A stretch of 64,000 nucleotides of DNA from Gardnerella vaginalis. Its GTDB lineage: Bacteria; Actinomycetota; Actinomycetes; Actinomycetales; Bifidobacteriaceae. This document shows, one piece after another, positions 17,390 to 26,122 of the stretch (positions are counted from its first letter, which is position 1; every line of letters starts with the position of its first letter). Made by a program: the position numbers and the translations under genes. The stretch is from positions 248,001 to 312,000 of the forward strand of contig NZ_JBETXJ010000002.1 in the NCBI RefSeq assembly GCF_040427915.1. The letters run 5' to 3'. The notes beneath the pieces are model-generated. The model made no database searches. It saw only the letters and a program-made list of their open reading frames with translations, and was not told the origin of the DNA.

Positions 17390-18814
17390 TTAGTGACGCA
17401 TCTTGCGAACAGCAGCACCCATACCAGCAAGCATAGAAGCAGCCAAAGCAGTCAAAGCAACACCAACACCAGCATTACCAAGCTTCTCGCCAGCCTTACC
17501 ATGACCATTGCCACCCTTAGCAAGCTCACCCTTAGCAGCAGCAGCCTTACCAGCAGCAGCACCAGCAGCGGCTGGAGCAGCAGCCTGAGCCTTAGCAGCC
17601 TCAGTCTTCTTAGCAGAAGCCTGAGCAGCAGGACCAAACTTACCATTCAAAGCATCAGCATAAATCTGCTTCGTACCAGGAACAGCTGGGAAATCAGCAG
17701 CCAAAGGATCAGAAGTCACAACAGGAGGAAGAGCAGCAGGATTCACACCCAAACGAACTGCATCGTTATAAGCATCCTTATACTCAGCCAAAGCCTTGTT
17801 ATAAGCAGCAACAGCAGCGAAAGCAGCATCACGAGCAGCATTAAACTCAGCTTCAGCCTTCTGCTCAGCATCAAAAGCACGCTGCTCATGAGCATGAGCA
17901 CGGTTCACTGCATCACGAAGAGCAGTTTCCTTAGCAGAATTATTCTCACCAGAAGCCAAGAAATCAGTCAAATCCTGGTTAGCCTTCTCAGCAGCAGCCT
18001 TACGAGCAGCAAGCTCAGTCATAGTGTCAAGAAGAGTCTTCCTCTTAGCAGCATAATCAGCCTTCTTCTCAGCAAGATTATTATCAGCCTCATCCAAAGC
18101 AAGCTTAGCCTCATACACGTAATGAGCAGCAAGCTTCTTCTTAGCAGCATCAGACAAGTTCAACTTACCAAGATCCTTGATCTTCTCATCAGGAGTGGTA
18201 GTATCATCCTTCTTGTCGTCCTTCTTGTCATCCTTCTTAGGAGCCTTCTCATCATCCTGCTTTGGAGTACCATCAGGATTCTCCTGACGCAAAGTACCAT
18301 CTTCCTTAAGGAATGGATGATATGACTGACCATACTGGGAATGCTCATAAAGATCCTCAGCAGCCTTAGCATCCTCAGCATCCTTAGCATCCTGAAGCTT
18401 CTTAGCAAGTTCAGCTGCAGAGAAATCATCTGTAGACTTGCGTAAAGCTGCATTAGCCTTACGCAACTCAGCCTTCTTAGATGCAAGAGTTGCATTAGCT
18501 GTGTTCATCGTCTCAAACAAACCCTTGCCAGTATTATCCTTCTGGTAATCAGATTCTTTCTTACCTTGATTAGCAGCTAAGTAAGCTTTAAGACCATCTT
18601 GGTATGCCTTGGTTGCTTCAGTTGCGGAATCCTGAGCAGTTTTAACATCAGCCTGAGCAGTTGCAGCTTTAGTCTCAGCATTAGTCTTAACAAGGAGGGC
18701 TTCTGCATAAACCTCGTTAGTGTAATCACCAGCGAATGCTGGGGTTGCCATTGCAAAGCCAGCAAGCAAAGTAGCGCCAGCAGCGAAAGCGGCGATAGCC
18801 TTCTTATTCATCAT
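17390..18814 (-). CDS. Secreted alanine-rich coiled-coil surface protein
   Basis: Not matched to a named family. The start at 18812-18814 (MMNKKAIAAFAAG) has an AAAGGA ribosome site and gives a signal peptide ending ATPAFA before GDYTNEVYAE. The mature protein is mostly long Ala/Lys/Glu/Asp helices with heptad-like spacing, broken by a charged DDKKDDKKDD segment near residue 200. The end has an Ala/Gly-rich stretch, a hydrophobic helix (VGVALTALAASMLAG) and a basic tail (RKMRH), the layout of a wall-anchor signal but without LPXTG; KLGNAG is where it would be. Alanine codons are almost all GCA/GCT with few rare codons, suggesting high expression. Its promoter spacer contains a G10 tract, so expression is probably phase variable. 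A role in adhesion or surface shielding is inference. Confidence 0.75.
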   Translation of the reverse strand: MMNKKAIAAFAAGATLLAGFAMATPAFAGDYTNEVYAEALLVKTNAETKAATAQADVKTAQDSATEATKAYQDGLKAYLAANQGKKESDYQKDNTGKGLFETMNTANATLASKKAELRKANAALRKSTDDFSAAELAKKLQDAKDAEDAKAAEDLYEHSQYGQSYHPFLKEDGTLRQENPDGTPKQDDEKAPKKDDKKDDKKDDTTTPDEKIKDLGKLNLSDAAKKKLAAHYVYEAKLALDEADNNLAEKKADYAAKRKTLLDTMTELAARKAAAEKANQDLTDFLASGENNSAKETALRDAVNRAHAHEQRAFDAEQKAEAEFNAARDAAFAAVAAYNKALAEYKDAYNDAVRLGVNPAALPPVVTSDPLAADFPAVPGTKQIYADALNGKFGPAAQASAKKTEAAKAQAAAPAAAGAAAGKAAAAKGELAKGGNGHGKAGEKLGNAGVGVALTALAASMLAGMGAAVRKMRH

Positions 18815-18934
18815 TTTAATTTCCTTTCTTCTTCTCCTCCGTGCAGGTACACGAAGAAAAATTTTAAACATCCAACAACATTCAAAACATTGTGGATAAC
18901 TACCAACCAGAGCATCTAGCTAGCAGCTGTTATT

Positions 18935-18965
18935 AACATACCCCCCCCCCGTTTAAAAAAGTCAA
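18935..18965 (-). promoter_or_regulatory. Putative phase-variable promoter with G10 spacer tract
   Basis: On the minus strand TTGACT (18960-18965) is followed by a 19-bp spacer, nine bases plus ten consecutive G (18941-18950), then TATGTT (18935-18940). Loss of one or two G would bring the spacer to 18 or 17 bp. Transcription would begin about 115 nt before the surface-protein start codon. Confidence 0.65.
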
Positions 18966-19308
18966 GAGGCAATCACACAAAACAAACAGAAAAAAATAAT
19001 GTTACACACAAACTAATCCACAATAAAAACTATTTTCACCATAATATTTGTGGATTAACACTAATAAAACCGTAAAAACACATTGTTTCAAGGTTTTTAA
19101 AGAATTTTCCCAGACTTTTCTCAGGAAACTACTCAGACAAGAACACTAACACTATAAAACCATTGAAAAATCAACATTCCACTCAACCCACACACGCAAC
19201 ACGCCGACACCACACTAACACCAAACTAACACCGCACAAACATCACACCAAACCGAATACCACACTGGCGCCAGATCAAATGCCACACTACAAGACAATC
19301 GCACCCAA
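18966..19308. other. Non-coding AC-rich stretch
   Basis: About 340 bases upstream of the surface-protein promoter. The plus strand becomes strongly A/C-rich (many ACAC and CCACAC words) towards 19250. I see no gene, RNA or convincing regulatory site in it. Confidence 0.5.
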
Positions 19309-19315
19309 TTAAATT

Positions 19316-19468
19316 CCCGCGTTTGTTCCCTTTCTGAGCAAATATAGGAACAAATGCGGAAACACTTGCCCGTGTTTGTTTACGTATTTGGCAATTTTGG
19401 AAACAAATGCAGGAACACTTTCCCGAGATTGTTTACACATTTGGCGATTTTGGAAACAAACTCGGGCA
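19316..19468 (+). repeat. 53-bp palindromic tandem repeats (three units)
   Basis: CCCG words at 19316, 19369 and 19422 give an exact 53-bp period; each unit is an inverted repeat closing with GGAACAAATGCGG, GGAAACAAATGCAGG or GGAAACAAACTCGGG. Same family as 11182-11353. Confidence 0.8.
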
Positions 19469-19510
19469 AAAAGAAACAAAACAAGAGAAGTCACTTCAAT
19501 TCGCTGAGCT

Positions 19511-19535
19511 TGAAAAGGCAGGTCGTCGCGCAACT
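19511..19535 (+). repeat. Module C tail, left edge of the accessory island
   Basis: TGAAAAGGCAGGTCGTCGCG followed by CAACTAG matches the conserved end of the three-hairpin repeats. A direct-oriented partner is at 28999-29027 on the other side of the island. Confidence 0.6.
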
Positions 19536-19642
19536 AGCGAATCCATGCAAGAAATCGATAAGCGCGCAGAAACTGTACTGCACGCATACACTAAAACGAG
19601 GTAAATATCAGTATTAAGCGCAGAATTAAAAAGTGATTAAAC

Positions 19643-20503
19643 TCAATTTTTTAGCGCGGAATCCAAACTCTTTATTCCAGAATTATTCAAATTCTCAAGA
19701 GATAAAATCTGCGTTCGCGCCAAATTTCTAAGTTCCACCATTCGATCTGCCTGTGGCAAACCCTTAGAAATCAAAACAGCGTTATAGCTTTCCATATTCG
19801 CCAATACAAGAAGTTCATTAATACTCGCCTCGTCTCGAATGTTGCCTTTTGACTTAGGATTTGCATCTCTCCATTGTTTAGCAGTCTTATTAAACAGTGC
19901 AACATTTAACAAATCTGCTTCATTTGCATACTTATACATCAACTGCTCAGGAGTCAAATCCTTCAACAAATATTCTTTAATAGCATCCGTATGAATCTTG
20001 TAATTAATCTTCGAAATCTCACGGTTCAAATTCCAATTCAGTGAAAGCCTTGAGTTCTCATCAGATTTAAGTCTTTGATAATCTTTGATAATATATAGTT
20101 CAAATTCTGCTGAAATCCAAGCTGCAAACTTAAATGCTATATCTTTATGAGCGTAAGTTCCACCATACTTACCAGATTTAGAAACTATGCCAATAGCATT
20201 TGTTGATTCTACCCATCTTTTAGGAGATAAAGTAAAAGCATTAGAACCAGCCTCATTCTTAAAGGAGTCGAATTCGACCCCTTTAAAATTCGGGTTGTTA
20301 ATACTCTCCCACAATCCCAAGAATTCAATAGTATTCTTCACTCTCAGCCAGTTTTTAACAACATCTTTAGGCTCTTCTTTGTTTTTATATCTCGCAATAT
20401 CGGTTAAACTAACGTAATCATTCATAAAATCTTCCGTATAAACCTGAATTGTAAAGCCTTTTGCCTTAATAATATCTTTTTTAATATTTGACACATTAGA
20501 CAT
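19643..20503 (-). CDS. KilA-N domain protein
   Basis: A 286-residue protein whose N-terminal half matches the KilA-N DNA-binding domain: YVSLTDIARYKN (about 30-41), VVKNWLRVKNTIEFLGLWE, then WVESTNAIGIVSKSGKYGGTYAHKDIAFKFAAWISAEF, the diagnostic segment (each part short of the whole domain). Such proteins are typical of phages and mobile islands and are often antirepressors or regulators. The ATG has a strong AGGGGG site. It lies downstream of the Type ISP enzyme, separated by 400 bp that hold three 18-bp palindromes, which are possible targets, although that is only inference. Confidence 0.85.
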   Translation of the reverse strand: MSNVSNIKKDIIKAKGFTIQVYTEDFMNDYVSLTDIARYKNKEEPKDVVKNWLRVKNTIEFLGLWESINNPNFKGVEFDSFKNEAGSNAFTLSPKRWVESTNAIGIVSKSGKYGGTYAHKDIAFKFAAWISAEFELYIIKDYQRLKSDENSRLSLNWNLNREISKINYKIHTDAIKEYLLKDLTPEQLMYKYANEADLLNVALFNKTAKQWRDANPKSKGNIRDEASINELLVLANMESYNAVLISKGLPQADRMVELRNLARTQILSLENLNNSGIKSLDSALKN

Positions 20504-20793
20504 AATTTCCCCCTAATTTTTACGCAAATCTACGCAAATAGTTGCTTTATTTGATTTGTTTACTTTATTTCTATGCGCTTAACACAAAACCCATGAATCA
20601 CAAGCAAAATTACAAAATCAAGCACAAGCCATATAACATCTAACAACTAGTAGAAAACTAGCATGCATCAGCGCATAAACATAATTCTATAAGATTTCAC
20701 AGATAAGAATCAACAAACTCGGATTATTCCCCAAAACTCAAGCAAAATAAAGAGCTAATCCTCAAAACAATGCTCTAACTAAACTAGCGCAAG
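20504..20793. other. AT-rich gap between KilA-N gene and palindrome array
   Basis: Apart from the KilA-N ribosome site and the palindromes that follow, I see no coding sequence or clear hairpin terminator here. Confidence 0.5.
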
Positions 20794-20890
20794 TTGGAAG
20801 TCTACTTCCAAGTTTAGTGCAAAATGGCAAAAGTTGGAAGTCTACTTCCAAATTCTGCAAAACTAGCTAAGATTTGGAAGTCTACTTCCA
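20794..20890. repeat. Three 18-bp palindromes at exact 40-bp spacing
   Basis: TTGGAAGTCTACTTCCAA occurs at 20794 and 20834, and all but its last base at 20874. Each has 7-8 bp arms around TCTA. The 22-bp intervals between them are unrelated. They lie just after the stop of the Type ISP gene. Possible operator array, RNA hairpins, or recombination sites; no cas genes and too short for CRISPR. Confidence 0.8.
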
Positions 20891-20905
20891 GCCACTCTAC
20901 ACTTT

Positions 20906-23900
20906 CTAATTCCACGCATCTGGCCAGCAATCTGGCTTATTAGTGATTTCGTTAAGTTTTGGCAAACCGTCAATAATGTTCATTGTTTCTACGCTAACGC
21001 GAACTACCTTTTTAACCAAATCAACAATATAGCGCGGATTATCGCAAGCTTCGTTTGGATTTCGTACAATACCAGTCTTCTTATCTACAACTACTTGATA
21101 TCGCTCAATCAGCCATTTGATTGCACTTTTACCGTTCACAACATACCTGTATGCTTGCAAAGGAATATTTTCAAGCACAAGATTTTGAGATACTTGCAAT
21201 ACCTTTAAATCGTCCTCTTTTTTGCCAGTTTCTGGATTGACGATTTTGCGAGGATACTTCATTTTGATTGTTTCGCCAGGATTTTCACTGTCTCCTACTT
21301 CGCAAATATCATCCCACGGCTTAACTTTTTCATAGTTTAAGTGCAATTTAGCGAGTTTTTCACCAGCTTTTTTGAAAGCTAAGAAGTCTTGAGCTAATGG
21401 AATTCGAGGTAAGTCTTTTTGCAAATTATTAGCAAAGCGACTGCGATAATCCGAGCTGTGCAAAACTCCGTAAACATAGTAGAAAATGTCTTCTTTAGTA
21501 ATAGTTAGACCAGGATATGCTGCTTGGAATACTGCTAAACCTGCGTCTGTGATTGCATCGTGACGCACGTATCCAGATTTATTTTCTTCAACATTGGTGC
21601 TGAAAAGATCTTGATCTTGGCACACCTTTTCGTACCAATAAAGTGGGAAACATTGCGAATCACCAACAAAATGTAGATCAGGAATAGAATTTGCAATTAA
21701 TACATAATTCCCAGATACACAAATCACCATATTTTCAGCACAAGAGGAAGAGTGTTGCTGACATGTCATTTCGCGCGCATTTTCATTATTAGCATATGAG
21801 GATATATTGCGGTTGCTGACATGTCCTTTCACCCGATTGTCTCCGACAATCGGGAAAATGCGCGGTTGCTGACATGTCATTTCATTCATTAACGAATCGA
21901 AATACAACCAAGACTTAGTAAAAGGTCTATACATTCCTTGCACGCAATGTTCTGGAACGTACGGAATATATGTACCTTTTTTAGCATAATCCTGTACTCT
22001 TCTTGACCAACTATATTTTGTAGTATCTTGCGGAAGTTGATTATTGTTATTTTGCAATTCTTTCATTGCATTATTAGTATTATCAATTAAAGTTCTTACG
22101 TTATCTTGCAACTTCAATAAAGACATATTCCAAACCCAAGCATCACGATTGGTTGCAACTCCGAGAGAATACATCTTAAATAATCCATCCGGCATTTTGT
22201 CAGGCTTATTAACCAATCCCATAGGAATGAAGCCATCAAAATTGCTATCTCGCTTATTTAGCCAATCACCATGCTCATCTTCATTAAGAATCTGCCACTG
22301 CGGATCTTCTTTAACAGCATTTTTAAGAATAGTAAATTTGTCTTCTCTAGTTAAATAATCGCCAATATCGCAATAATGAATAACGCCATGCTCTGCAGAA
22401 TTAGTATTCTTAACAAGCATTGTTATAGCAATAGTAGTTTTTGTACCATCTCCAAATACATTTTCTCTTTCTTTACGACGTTCTTCACCTTGAGTACGAG
22501 CATTCCCACGTAAGTTATATACATAAATCGAATTGAATTCTTTACTTATAGTTTTTCGCATTCCAGCTCCACTAGCACTAGAAAGCCAACCTCCATTAGA
22601 AACAAAGCATATAACACCATTATCTTCAATACGGTCACTCGCCCAACGGAATGCACGAATATAATGGTCATACAACTTACCATTTAGAGATGCATTGCTA
22701 AGTTTCACATACGTTTCTTCAATACGCTTATCTAAATGTTCATACTTAGTATTTTGATTACCAGTATTATCTTTATCCCCAGAACGGTAAGGAGGATTGC
22801 CAACAATCACTCGAATAGGTAAATGCAATTGATGTTCAACGCGCTCAGTATTCTCCGAAAAAGTAGTAGTATCAATCGGATCGTCTGGCTCATACATTTG
22901 GAAAGTATCCGCAAGAAGCGCACCAGCAAACGACTTATACTCTCCACCAACACGCGCATGATACGACTGCTCAATATTTACATCCATAATCATAGAAGCC
23001 AAAGGAACAATCTCATTAGAATGCAAATCATGCTCATACTTGTACGTTAAATTATCTAAAGGAATAAGTGACTCATCTTCAATAAGACGACAAATATACG
23101 TGCCAGTACCAGCAAAACCATCCAACACGTGTACATCACGGTTTCCAAGGCTTAAGCCAAACTCGTGCTTAAGAACACGATTAACCATGTGAAGCTGAGC
23201 ATCAACCACTTCAACAGGCGTATACACAATGCCAAGCTCATTAGCCATCTCGTTAAACGCAACCGAGAAAAAGTCGTTATAAATTTCCTTAACAAGATTC
23301 TGACGAGCCGAATCCTTAACAACTTGAGAAGCTTGCATCTTAACAGAAGAATACAAGTCTTGCAGCTTAGAATCACCTAAGTCTCTTGGCAAACCAGCAA
23401 GATACAAGCTTTCCAAAGCGCGATTCATACCCTTAACAATAGGATTATTCTCAATAACACTCGGATTATTAAATAAACTTTCAAAAATCGGGCGCGTAAT
23501 CTCATGCTGAGCTAAAACACTTACAGCTTGCTCTCTTGAATAATTAGAATTAAGACTATTGCGCAAACCTTGTAAGAACCTATTAAACTCTTCAACAGCA
23601 GCACCCGATTCCAACATTTCATCAATCGCTTGTGCGCGAGCAGTAGTAACTTGAGCAACGTCCTGAGTCCACTCATTCCAATACACCTTAGTTCCACATT
23701 TGCGCACAATTTGAGCATTAATTGAGCGACTCAAATCACGTAAAGAATCGATTTCAAAAACGCCTTGAGTAGCGTTAATAGAACCATCATCTCCATAGCA
23801 GGCATGACATAAATCATCACCTTGCGCATCTGAGCCAATAAGATGCGAGTTACCATTTTTATTAGCTTTAGCAACATTTAGCGCATCAAGTTTATTGCGT

Positions 23901-25966
23901 ACACTTTCTTCGCCAAGAACATCGACTTCAACAATATGATTAAGAGCATCAGTGTCTCCTAATGCAGCAGCATTAATCTTAGCTTCCAAACGCTCATCAT
24001 GGCCTCGAAGAGCATTAACAACTCTCCACACAATCTTATAAGCATCACTACTTGCTAAAGCCTCACTAGGGTCTACACCGCTAGCAACAAAAATAGGCAA
24101 AATAATATAACCAAATTCTTTACCCTCTGCTTTACGCATTACTCTGCCAACACTTTGAATAATCTCCACTCTGCTCTTACGCGAACTCAGGTAAATAATC
24201 GCATCTAAAGCAGGAACATCAATACCTTCCGCCAAGCAACGCGCGTTAGAAAGAATATGACAAGAACCATCTTCTGCAGCTAAAGCTTTAAGCTTTTGCG
24301 CGCGAGTAGAAGAATCCATGCTTCCATCAACATGATCCACTTCAAATTTAGTGTTTCCAGAAGCATCCAAAAGAGCATCACGCTCAGCAGCATCCTCTTC
24401 ACCAAGAGCTTTAGTATAAGCTTTAATAACTCGCTGAAATTCATTACTAAGCTGCTTCGAAGCCTTAATACTGGAAGCAAAAGCTATAGCATGATGCAAA
24501 ACGCGTTTAGCATCATCGGAACTCTGAATAGCATGTTTGCCAATATTTTTCAGCTCATTTGCATGACGACGATCAAAAAGAGCTTTCCAAATGCCAACAA
24601 ATTTAGCCTGATCATCAACTTCAATTGACGGGCCTGCAGACAAATGTTGCTGCATACTCTTAGGCAAGGCATCTTGACTTATTTGCATAACAACAATCTT
24701 GTAATCAGTAAGAATACCTTTTTCAACAGCCTTACCAAAACCAAGGTGGTAACACATGCGTCCATATGTTTTTTCATCGTCCATGCTTGCAATAGTCACA
24801 GCACCTTCAAGACTAGCTGCACGTTTAGCGCTCGTATCATAAATTCTAGGAGTTGCAGTCATATACAATCGTTTTGAGCATCGCAAAAAATCGTTATCAT
24901 GAACTTTTTGGAAGTAGCCTTCGTCTTCACCAACCAAGCCAGTTGTACGATGAGCTTCATCGCATATAACTAAATCAAAATCAGGTAAACCTTGCTCTTG
25001 AGCATCATGTAAAACTTGAATCGACTGATACGTACTAAACACAACATTAAGAGCATCAGGCTTGTGCTTAAAACGATGGACTAAAGTATAAGCGTTAGTA
25101 GTAGCTGGAGACGGAATATCGCTGATTTGACCATAATTATCTTCACTATCGATATTCGATGCTCCGCCATCCGAACAAACAACATACACATTGATTTTTT
25201 CACGAACTTGGTTCACCCAAGACTTCATTGTTTGACTTACCAAACTAATAGACGGTGCTAAAAACAGCACGGTTCCAAAACCACAAAATTCTTCTGCAAA
25301 ACGCAAAGAAGTCAAGGTTTTACCAGTGCCACAAGCCATTACAGCGAGCGCACGATCATGATTTCTTAACTCTGCACTAATAGCATCAATAGCTTCACGC
25401 TGATAATCGCGAGGCTCATTTACTTTTCTAGCGTTCGAAGGTTTTCCATTGAAATAATCACGCCAGTCAATATTTGAACAGCTTATAGTCTCTTTATCAA
25501 TACGAACTATATCGATTCCATCAGCAACACTTTTATTAATATATTTTCTAAGCTCGCTAGTAATTCCAGGAGCACTATCTGCAATAATATAGTGACTGTA
25601 TTGTTTATCTGCTAAAGCGTTAGCAAAGAACGTACTTAAATTTTTATTGCTTAACTTTTCTTTGTAGCATTTTGCTTGAATTGCCCAATACTCTCCATCT
25701 GTATCTTGAGCCACAAGATCTATGCCAATGTCTTTGCTTCCTGGATTGGTTGGAGAATCGTTCCACATCCAAACATTTGTAAATCTACTTTTCCACTCTG
25801 GACTTGTTTGCAAGAAGTATCGAATAGCAAGTTCCCAAGATGTGCCCTTTTGACGCTGGTCTACTGAATCTTTAACAATACGATTTATAACATCATCTAC
25901 TGTGAGATTTTCGTTATCAATCTCATCATTGAGATTGTAAGACTTAGCGCTTGCATAATCAGTCAT
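20906..25966 (-). CDS. Single-chain Type ISP restriction-modification enzyme
   Basis: One polypeptide of 1686 residues combining nuclease, translocase, methyltransferase and target recognition, as in the LlaGI/LlaBIII class. The Mrr-like nuclease shows GIDLVAQDTDGEYWAIQAKCY (about 75-95, D...E...QxK). The SF2 helicase shows MACGTGKTL (Walker A), CDEAHRTTG (DEAH box) and QSVGRVMRKAEGK (motif VI). The adenine methyltransferase shows VLDGFAGTGTY (motif I) and GNPPY (motif IV). The C-terminal third is the target-recognition part. It should methylate one strand of an asymmetric site and cut unmodified DNA after head-to-head translocation. ATG at 25964-25966 is preferred over 25981 because AGGAGAG lies 4 nt upstream. 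The recognition-domain segment at 21753-21884 holds three copies of a 17-bp repeat. Confidence 0.92.
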   Translation of the reverse strand: MTDYASAKSYNLNDEIDNENLTVDDVINRIVKDSVDQRQKGTSWELAIRYFLQTSPEWKSRFTNVWMWNDSPTNPGSKDIGIDLVAQDTDGEYWAIQAKCYKEKLSNKNLSTFFANALADKQYSHYIIADSAPGITSELRKYINKSVADGIDIVRIDKETISCSNIDWRDYFNGKPSNARKVNEPRDYQREAIDAISAELRNHDRALAVMACGTGKTLTSLRFAEEFCGFGTVLFLAPSISLVSQTMKSWVNQVREKINVYVVCSDGGASNIDSEDNYGQISDIPSPATTNAYTLVHRFKHKPDALNVVFSTYQSIQVLHDAQEQGLPDFDLVICDEAHRTTGLVGEDEGYFQKVHDNDFLRCSKRLYMTATPRIYDTSAKRAASLEGAVTIASMDDEKTYGRMCYHLGFGKAVEKGILTDYKIVVMQISQDALPKSMQQHLSAGPSIEVDDQAKFVGIWKALFDRRHANELKNIGKHAIQSSDDAKRVLHHAIAFASSIKASKQLSNEFQRVIKAYTKALGEEDAAERDALLDASGNTKFEVDHVDGSMDSSTRAQKLKALAAEDGSCHILSNARCLAEGIDVPALDAIIYLSSRKSRVEIIQSVGRVMRKAEGKEFGYIILPIFVASGVDPSEALASSDAYKIVWRVVNALRGHDERLEAKINAAALGDTDALNHIVEVDVLGEESVRNKLDALNVAKANKNGNSHLIGSDAQGDDLCHACYGDDGSINATQGVFEIDSLRDLSRSINAQIVRKCGTKVYWNEWTQDVAQVTTARAQAIDEMLESGAAVEEFNRFLQGLRNSLNSNYSREQAVSVLAQHEITRPIFESLFNNPSVIENNPIVKGMNRALESLYLAGLPRDLGDSKLQDLYSSVKMQASQVVKDSARQNLVKEIYNDFFSVAFNEMANELGIVYTPVEVVDAQLHMVNRVLKHEFGLSLGNRDVHVLDGFAGTGTYICRLIEDESLIPLDNLTYKYEHDLHSNEIVPLASMIMDVNIEQSYHARVGGEYKSFAGALLADTFQMYEPDDPIDTTTFSENTERVEHQLHLPIRVIVGNPPYRSGDKDNTGNQNTKYEHLDKRIEETYVKLSNASLNGKLYDHYIRAFRWASDRIEDNGVICFVSNGGWLSSASGAGMRKTISKEFNSIYVYNLRGNARTQGEERRKERENVFGDGTKTTIAITMLVKNTNSAEHGVIHYCDIGDYLTREDKFTILKNAVKEDPQWQILNEDEHGDWLNKRDSNFDGFIPMGLVNKPDKMPDGLFKMYSLGVATNRDAWVWNMSLLKLQDNVRTLIDNTNNAMKELQNNNNQLPQDTTKYSWSRRVQDYAKKGTYIPYVPEHCVQGMYRPFTKSWLYFDSLMNEMTCQQPRIFPIVGDNRVKGHVSNRNISSYANNENAREMTCQQHSSSCAENMVICVSGNYVLIANSIPDLHFVGDSQCFPLYWYEKVCQDQDLFSTNVEENKSGYVRHDAITDAGLAVFQAAYPGLTITKEDIFYYVYGVLHSSDYRSRFANNLQKDLPRIPLAQDFLAFKKAGEKLAKLHLNYEKVKPWDDICEVGDSENPGETIKMKYPRKIVNPETGKKEDDLKVLQVSQNLVLENIPLQAYRYVVNGKSAIKWLIERYQVVVDKKTGIVRNPNEACDNPRYIVDLVKKVVRVSVETMNIIDGLPKLNEITNKPDCWPDAWN
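21753..21884 (-). repeat. Three 17-19 bp direct repeats inside the Type ISP recognition region
   Basis: GTTGCTGACATGTCATTTC (plus strand) occurs at 21753 and 21865, and with one change at 21812. On the coding strand the outer two are read as EMTCQQ and the middle one in another frame as GHVSNR. A 10-bp hairpin (CCCGATTGTC/GACAATCGGG, 21833-21854) lies between the last two. Confidence 0.75.
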
Positions 25967-26122
25967 AGTACTCTCCTGCAATCTAAAGTCACTCTATTGT
26001 CACTCTAAAGTCACTAATAAGCACGATATAGAAAAACAAATTACTCTAATTCTACCGCCATTAATAACTATAGAAGTATAGCGTTTAATAAATTCACCCA
26101 CCCACACCACAAAAGAACTAGT

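Follow-up and report, generated by a model that had tools for sequence, protein, structure and literature searches.

A candidate phase-variable promoter with a G tract in its spacer is shared by a family of predicted surface-protein genes in Gardnerella

Results

The window, a 64-kb stretch of Gardnerella vaginalis DNA, carries on its minus strand a gene (17390–18814, ATG at 18814) that, according to sequence searches and fold prediction, encodes a 474-aa secreted, mostly helical member of a protein family. Comparison with paralogs delimited a signal peptide of about 28 aa (18731–18814, minus strand; cleavage site judged by eye) and a constant C-terminal tail (17393–17482, minus strand) made up of LGNAG, a hydrophobic stretch and RKMRH. 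The gene is preceded by a predicted 5′ leader of 120 nt between the -10 element and the start codon (18815–18934, minus strand; transcription start site predicted from sequence). The promoter was read directly on the minus strand at 18965–18935 and consists of a -35 element TTGACT (18960–18965), a 19-bp spacer (18959–18941) and a -10 element TATGTT (18935–18940). The spacer is composed of a constant part, TTTTTAAAC (18951–18959; also seen in the aligned copies described below), and a G10 tract (18941–18950) adjoining the -10 element. Thus, a homopolymer of at least 8 lies between recognisable -35 and -10 elements, as in promoters of the porA and tp0126 type, and the coordinates, hexamers and 19-bp spacer that an earlier note had given for this promoter were all correct.

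Apart from the G10 tract, the window had no G or C run of at least 8. In the 1.64-Mb genome (both strands), ~0.43 runs of at least 10 G were expected from base composition vs 19 separate runs observed, the latter obtained by merging 32 overlapping matches by hand. We also looked for another canonical promoter on the minus strand, which would deprive the tract of its role. A simple sigma-70 consensus scan of 18700–19700 returned two matches, both on the plus strand, and no minus-strand promoter; the scan was restricted to spacers of 16–18 bp and so cannot report the window promoter itself (19 bp).

A repeat search showed that a dispersed 53-bp repeat is present twice on the upstream side of the promoter (19316–19421). 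With up to 1 mismatch allowed, repeats of this 53-bp period (CGCGTTTGTTCCC) occurred at 103 or more genomic places, vs 10 for a reversed control. At least 5 of 7 family genes had them about 275–360 bp upstream of the promoter, and at least 3 family genes had them about 290–340 bp downstream. They may contribute to the duplication of these genes or to exchange between them. The upstream neighbours (19643–25981) encode a KilA-N domain protein and a large type ISP restriction-modification enzyme.

The window genome contains at least seven paralogs of the gene. Six of them have the tract promoter, each with its own tract, while the seventh, located at 751 kb, lacks a tract. Signal peptides of the six tract-bearing paralogs were 96–100% identical and their 30-residue tails 100% identical; core identity was 26–46% in 13 of 15 pairs, and in the two duplicate pairs it was 100% and 83%. 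Within this genome, a constant export signal is therefore combined with a variable, putatively exposed part, as in the Vlp and Tpr systems, and, again as in those systems, several paralogs each have their own tract promoter (6 here, 36 in 12 genomes).

The earlier note had described the product as an exported coiled-coil protein. Export was borne out, at the level of sequence, by the signal peptide and the sorting-signal-like tail. The predicted structure was mostly helical, with low overall confidence (mean pLDDT 57.8); a single helical hairpin, at about residues 222–354, was predicted with confidence. A PDB fold search gave 905 matches at E ≤ 10 and none at E ≤ 0.001, and the matches listed were taken as generic, uninformative helical hairpins. 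The window protein had only a sub-threshold match in Pfam (E 0.18), no match in NCBIfam, none among PDB sequences at E ≤ 0.01 and none in plasmid records.

Like LPXTG proteins, the window protein combines a signal peptide with a C-terminal hydrophobic stretch and a basic tail (read by eye). Neither LPXTG nor LAXTG was found before its hydrophobic stretch; LGNAG stands in this place, which puts the protein outside strict LPXTG membership. Relatives had LPTTG (L140), LPGTG (L145), LAKTG, LSKTG or HTGTG. Across species the motif thus ranged from LPTTG/LPGTG through LAKTG/LSKTG to LGNAG/HTGTG, as if the mode of anchoring had changed or been lost. The sortase SrtE prefers LAXTG. For strain ATCC 14018, the available text of PMC12519793 mentions the sortase gene srtE. 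The signal peptide of the family, as read from the sequence, has no lipobox cysteine.

A search of 112 genus-level genomes with TTGACTTTTNNNAAC-G6 as the query revealed 36 promoter copies, spread over 12 genomes with 1 to 6 copies each; the other 100 genomes had none, and the reversed pattern occurred at 0 places in the same 112 genomes. Genome sets of this kind place Gardnerella together with Bifidobacterium. The window protein, searched against these genomes at E ≤ 0.001, scored in exactly the 12 promoter-bearing genomes, with several of these 12 genome-level matches covering the signal peptide or tail only. In one copy (L146, the only copy in genome G107) the bases right after the tract were masked and unreadable, leaving 35 readable copies. 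A looser search for TTGACTTTT, any 3–28 bases and TATSTTRA gave 36 places, comprising 35 family copies and one unrelated site. Within this range of 3–28 bases no short or interrupted version of the tract was found in the family (35 of 35 family tracts were pure), and more diverged promoters would be missed since the search demanded exact flanking elements. In a species-wide collection, 24 of 30 named stretches with the promoter came from Gardnerella or Bifidobacteriaceae and 6 of 30 from elsewhere.

Alignment of the 35 readable copies showed that the -35 hexamer and the following TTT were invariant (2.00 bits per column) and that TAT[GC]TT came right after the tract in 35 of all 36 copies (1.89 bits for the -10 element), compared to 0.92–0.93 bits in the upstream flank and 0.52 bits from 12 nt past the tract. 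A chance origin of the promoter was ruled out by the 36 copies vs 0 reversed, the pure tracts, the conserved elements and the ~0.43 runs expected. In the Gardnerella genomes under study, near-identical predicted promoters precede an entire family of genes that are related but diverse, and the single promoter in the window is one copy of this genus-wide promoter family, which is invisible from the window alone.

The conservation profile also bears on whether the tract acts by changing the binding or phasing of a regulator, beyond sigma-factor spacing, as was proposed for opc or shown for nadA. Some columns of the upstream T-rich stretch were invariant, and there are precedents, as a CRP homolog modulates poly-G tpr promoters and a regulator has been suggested for opc (PMC7864442), while the effect at nadA is repressor-based (PMC2791445). 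Against this, the upstream region had no strongly conserved block (mean 0.92–0.93 bits vs 2.00 at the -35 element) and the tract was strictly between the core elements in 35 of 35 readable copies. We consider regulator binding an unlikely explanation.

The readable tracts, all of pure G, were G9 in 10 copies, G10 in 23 and G11 in 2, corresponding to spacers of 18, 19 and 20 bp, respectively; the masked copy was an additional G9. G8, which would give the classical optimum of 17 bp, was absent from these 35 copies, all of which were at 18–20 bp. Tract length varied from 9 to 11 even between copies with 0–1 differences in 65 nt (50 nt upstream and 15 nt of the -35 region). Copies that differed at no more than 3 of these 65 nt formed 67 pairs, not independent of one another, and tract length differed in 32 of them. 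In the window genome (G000), two paralogs on contig C2, at 630 kb (G9) and 732 kb (G10), matched at 1,889 of 1,896 positions; besides two differences at the outermost edge of the aligned block, the tract was the sole difference up to about codon 424. The best core match of these genes in genome G105 (64–65%) had a G11 tract. Close copies thus differ in tract length, as at porA and tp0126, with the lengths here read from assemblies, in which homopolymers are error-prone and any single case may be an assembly error. Garcia et al. 2024 also note that homopolymer lengths in assemblies are error-prone (PMC11287997, section 11). Overall, the pure tracts, the 9–11 range between close copies and the G9/G10 difference in near-identical genes support the slippage-tuned spacer that had been proposed from the window.

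Genes of similar start that have no tract offered a view of the active spacing. Of 12 such genes listed, 7 had a promoter-like pair at the corresponding place, which was TTGA[GT]T-17-TA[TA][CG]TT in 6 and TTGATT-18-TATGTT in 1; three of these seven pairs (-10 TAAGTT) were below the script threshold and were read by eye. The 18-bp spacer contained an interrupted G run, and the remaining 5 of the 12 listed genes had unrelated upstream sequence. This suggests an active spacing of 17–18 bp, i.e. G8–G9 in tract-bearing genes. Because the tract-less siblings use 17-bp (6) or 18-bp (1) spacers, G10 (19 bp) would plausibly be a low or intermediate state, and the most likely order of strength is G8/G9 high, G10 low or intermediate, and G11 off. 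G tracts are possibly underwound, in which case the optimal length could be greater.

Tracts of at least 8 G were also examined throughout the 12 promoter-bearing genomes. TAT followed directly after 110 of 216 such tracts, 35 of which were the family copies, and in the reversed control TAT preceded 12 of the 212 tracts with a readable preceding base. Among the 75 non-family tracts that abut TAT (upstream sequence readable in 67), a hexamer starting with TTG was found at spacers of 17, 18 and 19 bp in 9, 8 and 7 cases (24 of 67), and TTG was nearly as common at spacers of 23–25 bp (8, 5 and 7), in part owing to recurrent TATTCG sites. Similarity to the -35 element was in moderate excess (mean 3.19 for the 75 tracts, including 8 without readable upstream sequence that scored near 0, vs 2.87 in shuffles, sd 0.08), and 29 sites matched at 4 of 6 positions or better vs 20.9 in shuffles (sd 3.9). 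At 10 sites (L194, L197, L207, L219, L229, L249 and others) the tract, with TATTCG after it, appears to lie in the coding start of another surface-protein family; the Sanger-tested tract described below is one of them. With these ten tracts apparently inside reading frames and the -35 signal moderate, only part of the non-family tracts are likely to be promoters. Further promoter-like tract classes in the 12 genomes had the forms CTTGAAATCCTTCAT-Gn-TATAA and CTTGCAAATAGGCGT-Gn-TATAGT.

Garcia et al. 2024 reported that homopolymers are abundant and variable upstream of Gardnerella surface genes, that some 70% of G/C tracts are found in the 300 bp upstream of ORFs, many encoding surface proteins, and that one tract was 9 or 10 in sister colonies by Sanger sequencing (PMC11287997; the last in section 11). 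We located the Sanger-tested tract from the published primers. The forward primer TTCGACCAAGAATCACCCAG lies in a further dispersed element (13 exact copies and 1 one-mismatch copy in G000, 18 exact copies in G105) and occurs at G105 1306154–1306173, and the reverse primer had an exact match in L229. The hand-derived amplicon of about 545 bp (546 stated) identified the tested tract as that at G105 1305819, a tract outside the family promoter class and apparently within a reading frame; the Methods of that paper place it within a GA-module protein (PMC11287997).

A further alternative is a static weak promoter, whose G run would hold the spacing at a suboptimal value without serving as a switch. 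Such a promoter would fit the finding of exactly G10 in 23 of 35 readable copies, but is very unlikely in view of the 9/10/11 differences among close copies, the purity of all 35 readable tracts, the G tracts that abut TAT elsewhere in the 12 genomes, and the variation between sister colonies of a similar-sized Gardnerella tract, at another locus and apparently within a reading frame (PMC11287997).

The predicted leaders were folded separately. As read from the minimum-energy folds, each of 33 distinct leaders formed three consecutive stem-loops, and the first 50 nt had a mean z of -2.45 relative to simple shuffles (single values -0.3 to -4.2). In the window gene these are stem-loop 1 (18899–18927, minus strand), stem-loop 2 (18869–18898, minus strand) and stem-loop 3 (18832–18861, minus strand), the last of which would sequester a first purine-rich site, GGAGGAG. 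A second, ribosome-binding-like purine-rich site, AAAGGAAA (18820–18827, minus strand), appeared unpaired when sequence and fold were judged by eye. A consensus fold, built on a MAFFT alignment not fitted to structure, had 17 pairs in two helices, which correspond to the first and last stem-loops, and did not include the middle one, which was thus seen in per-sequence folds only. Pairs were changed on both sides in 11 of 17 cases, and 91.6% of the consensus cells could pair vs 80.9% in shuffles. The covariation score was 0.466 vs 0.266 for shuffles that do not preserve relatedness, and 0.06–0.20 for slid controls. Alignment A2 comprised 16 of 19 rows, with L034 (taken on the wrong strand), L127 and L149 left out. 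The pairing and covariation comparisons make a strong but not final case for a conserved, structured leader with covarying helices 1 and 3. No Rfam match was found at E ≤ 0.1 for the leaders of five loci. The predicted structure may protect the mRNA or set translation. In the window leader and several paralogs' leaders we observed TTATCCACA (18891–18899, minus strand, in the window), which we take to be a perfect DnaA-box-like sequence, and other family leaders contained the related GTGGATAAC.

The position of the leader is relevant to a last alternative, namely that transcription comes from further upstream and the G run acts in the RNA, through reiterative transcription or a leader effect. 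Against this, TTGACTTTT and TATSTT, at near-promoter spacing around the tract, show the highest conservation in the region, and the covarying hairpins start just past the predicted transcription start. An RNA-level action of the tract is highly improbable.

Discussion

Slipped-strand control of the spacing of a sigma-70-type promoter by the G tract is the best explanation of these results, and we regard it as probable. The G10 run would be the variable part of the -35/-10 spacer. Replication slippage that adds or removes a G would shift the spacer by 1 bp and so alter binding of RNA polymerase, and each of the six paralogs could be tuned up or down by its own tract. Since each paralog has its own tract and, between an unchanging signal peptide and tail, a usually divergent core, a population would present different mixtures of surface proteins. 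We infer slippage as the cause of the differences in tract length, and likewise both an effect of tract length on transcription and the display of family proteins at the surface. A more far-reaching proposal, which we put forward tentatively and would hold at slightly short of even, is a genus-wide contingency system on a portable cassette (G9–G11 switch, three-hairpin leader, fixed signal peptide and tail), in which dispersed loci, often flanked by short repeats, exchange their diverse cores, and many independent promoter rheostats determine the surface coat of each cell.

This kind of switch is already known; within the Gardnerella and Bifidobacterium literature searched, the new part is the family with its shared promoter and leader, and no report of an entire gene family switched through its promoter spacers was found there. 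The family and its promoter offer a concrete mechanism and a defined set of genes behind the published variable homopolymers of Gardnerella. The shared promoter leads to a simple prediction, that the family members expressed by a culture of this strain should be readable from six short tracts. Switching of surface proteins would matter for how bacterial vaginosis persists and recurs, and for any attempt to use family proteins as antigens.

The work of Garcia et al. 2024 concerns the same genus, and the promoter position, the family, the shared promoter and the structured leader are not described in the accessible parts of that paper, in whose main text the word 'promoter' occurs once (PMC11287997). 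In Bifidobacterium breve, of the same bacterial family as Gardnerella, pili are subject to replication slippage in intragenic G tracts that act by reading frame, and further tracts within promoter spacers are mentioned in the discussion of that report (PMC9187656). The pilus tracts, being intragenic, are unlike the promoter-spacer tracts of Gardnerella.

In more distant bacteria, porA is a single porin gene. In porA and fetA of Neisseria meningitidis, a homopolymer between the -35 and -10 elements sets their spacing by its length (PMC2791445, PMC7864442). The Gardnerella promoter has its homopolymer in the same position, but, unlike porA, belongs to another phylum and to a multigene family of Gram-positive surface proteins. 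Poly-G tracts in promoters are also found in Treponema pallidum, where that of tp0126 lies between the -35 and -10 elements with 17 nt being optimal, tprE, tprG and tprJ are transcribed only at 8 G or fewer, and tprL likewise has a poly-G promoter (PMC7864442). Gardnerella resembles tp0126 and the tpr genes in having poly-G in the promoters of predicted surface-protein genes, whereas the proteins are unrelated (by annotation), and the tract-bearing members in Gardnerella share one promoter sequence, with predicted effects of tract length. The Vlp genes of Mycoplasma hyorhinis lie at one locus. They encode several surface proteins, each gene with its own promoter homopolymer that gives ON/OFF switching (PMC10502178). 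The Gardnerella paralogs similarly have their own promoter homopolymer each; in contrast to the poly-A tracts and lipoproteins of Vlp, the tracts are poly-G, the genes are dispersed and the signal peptide is without a lipobox cysteine.
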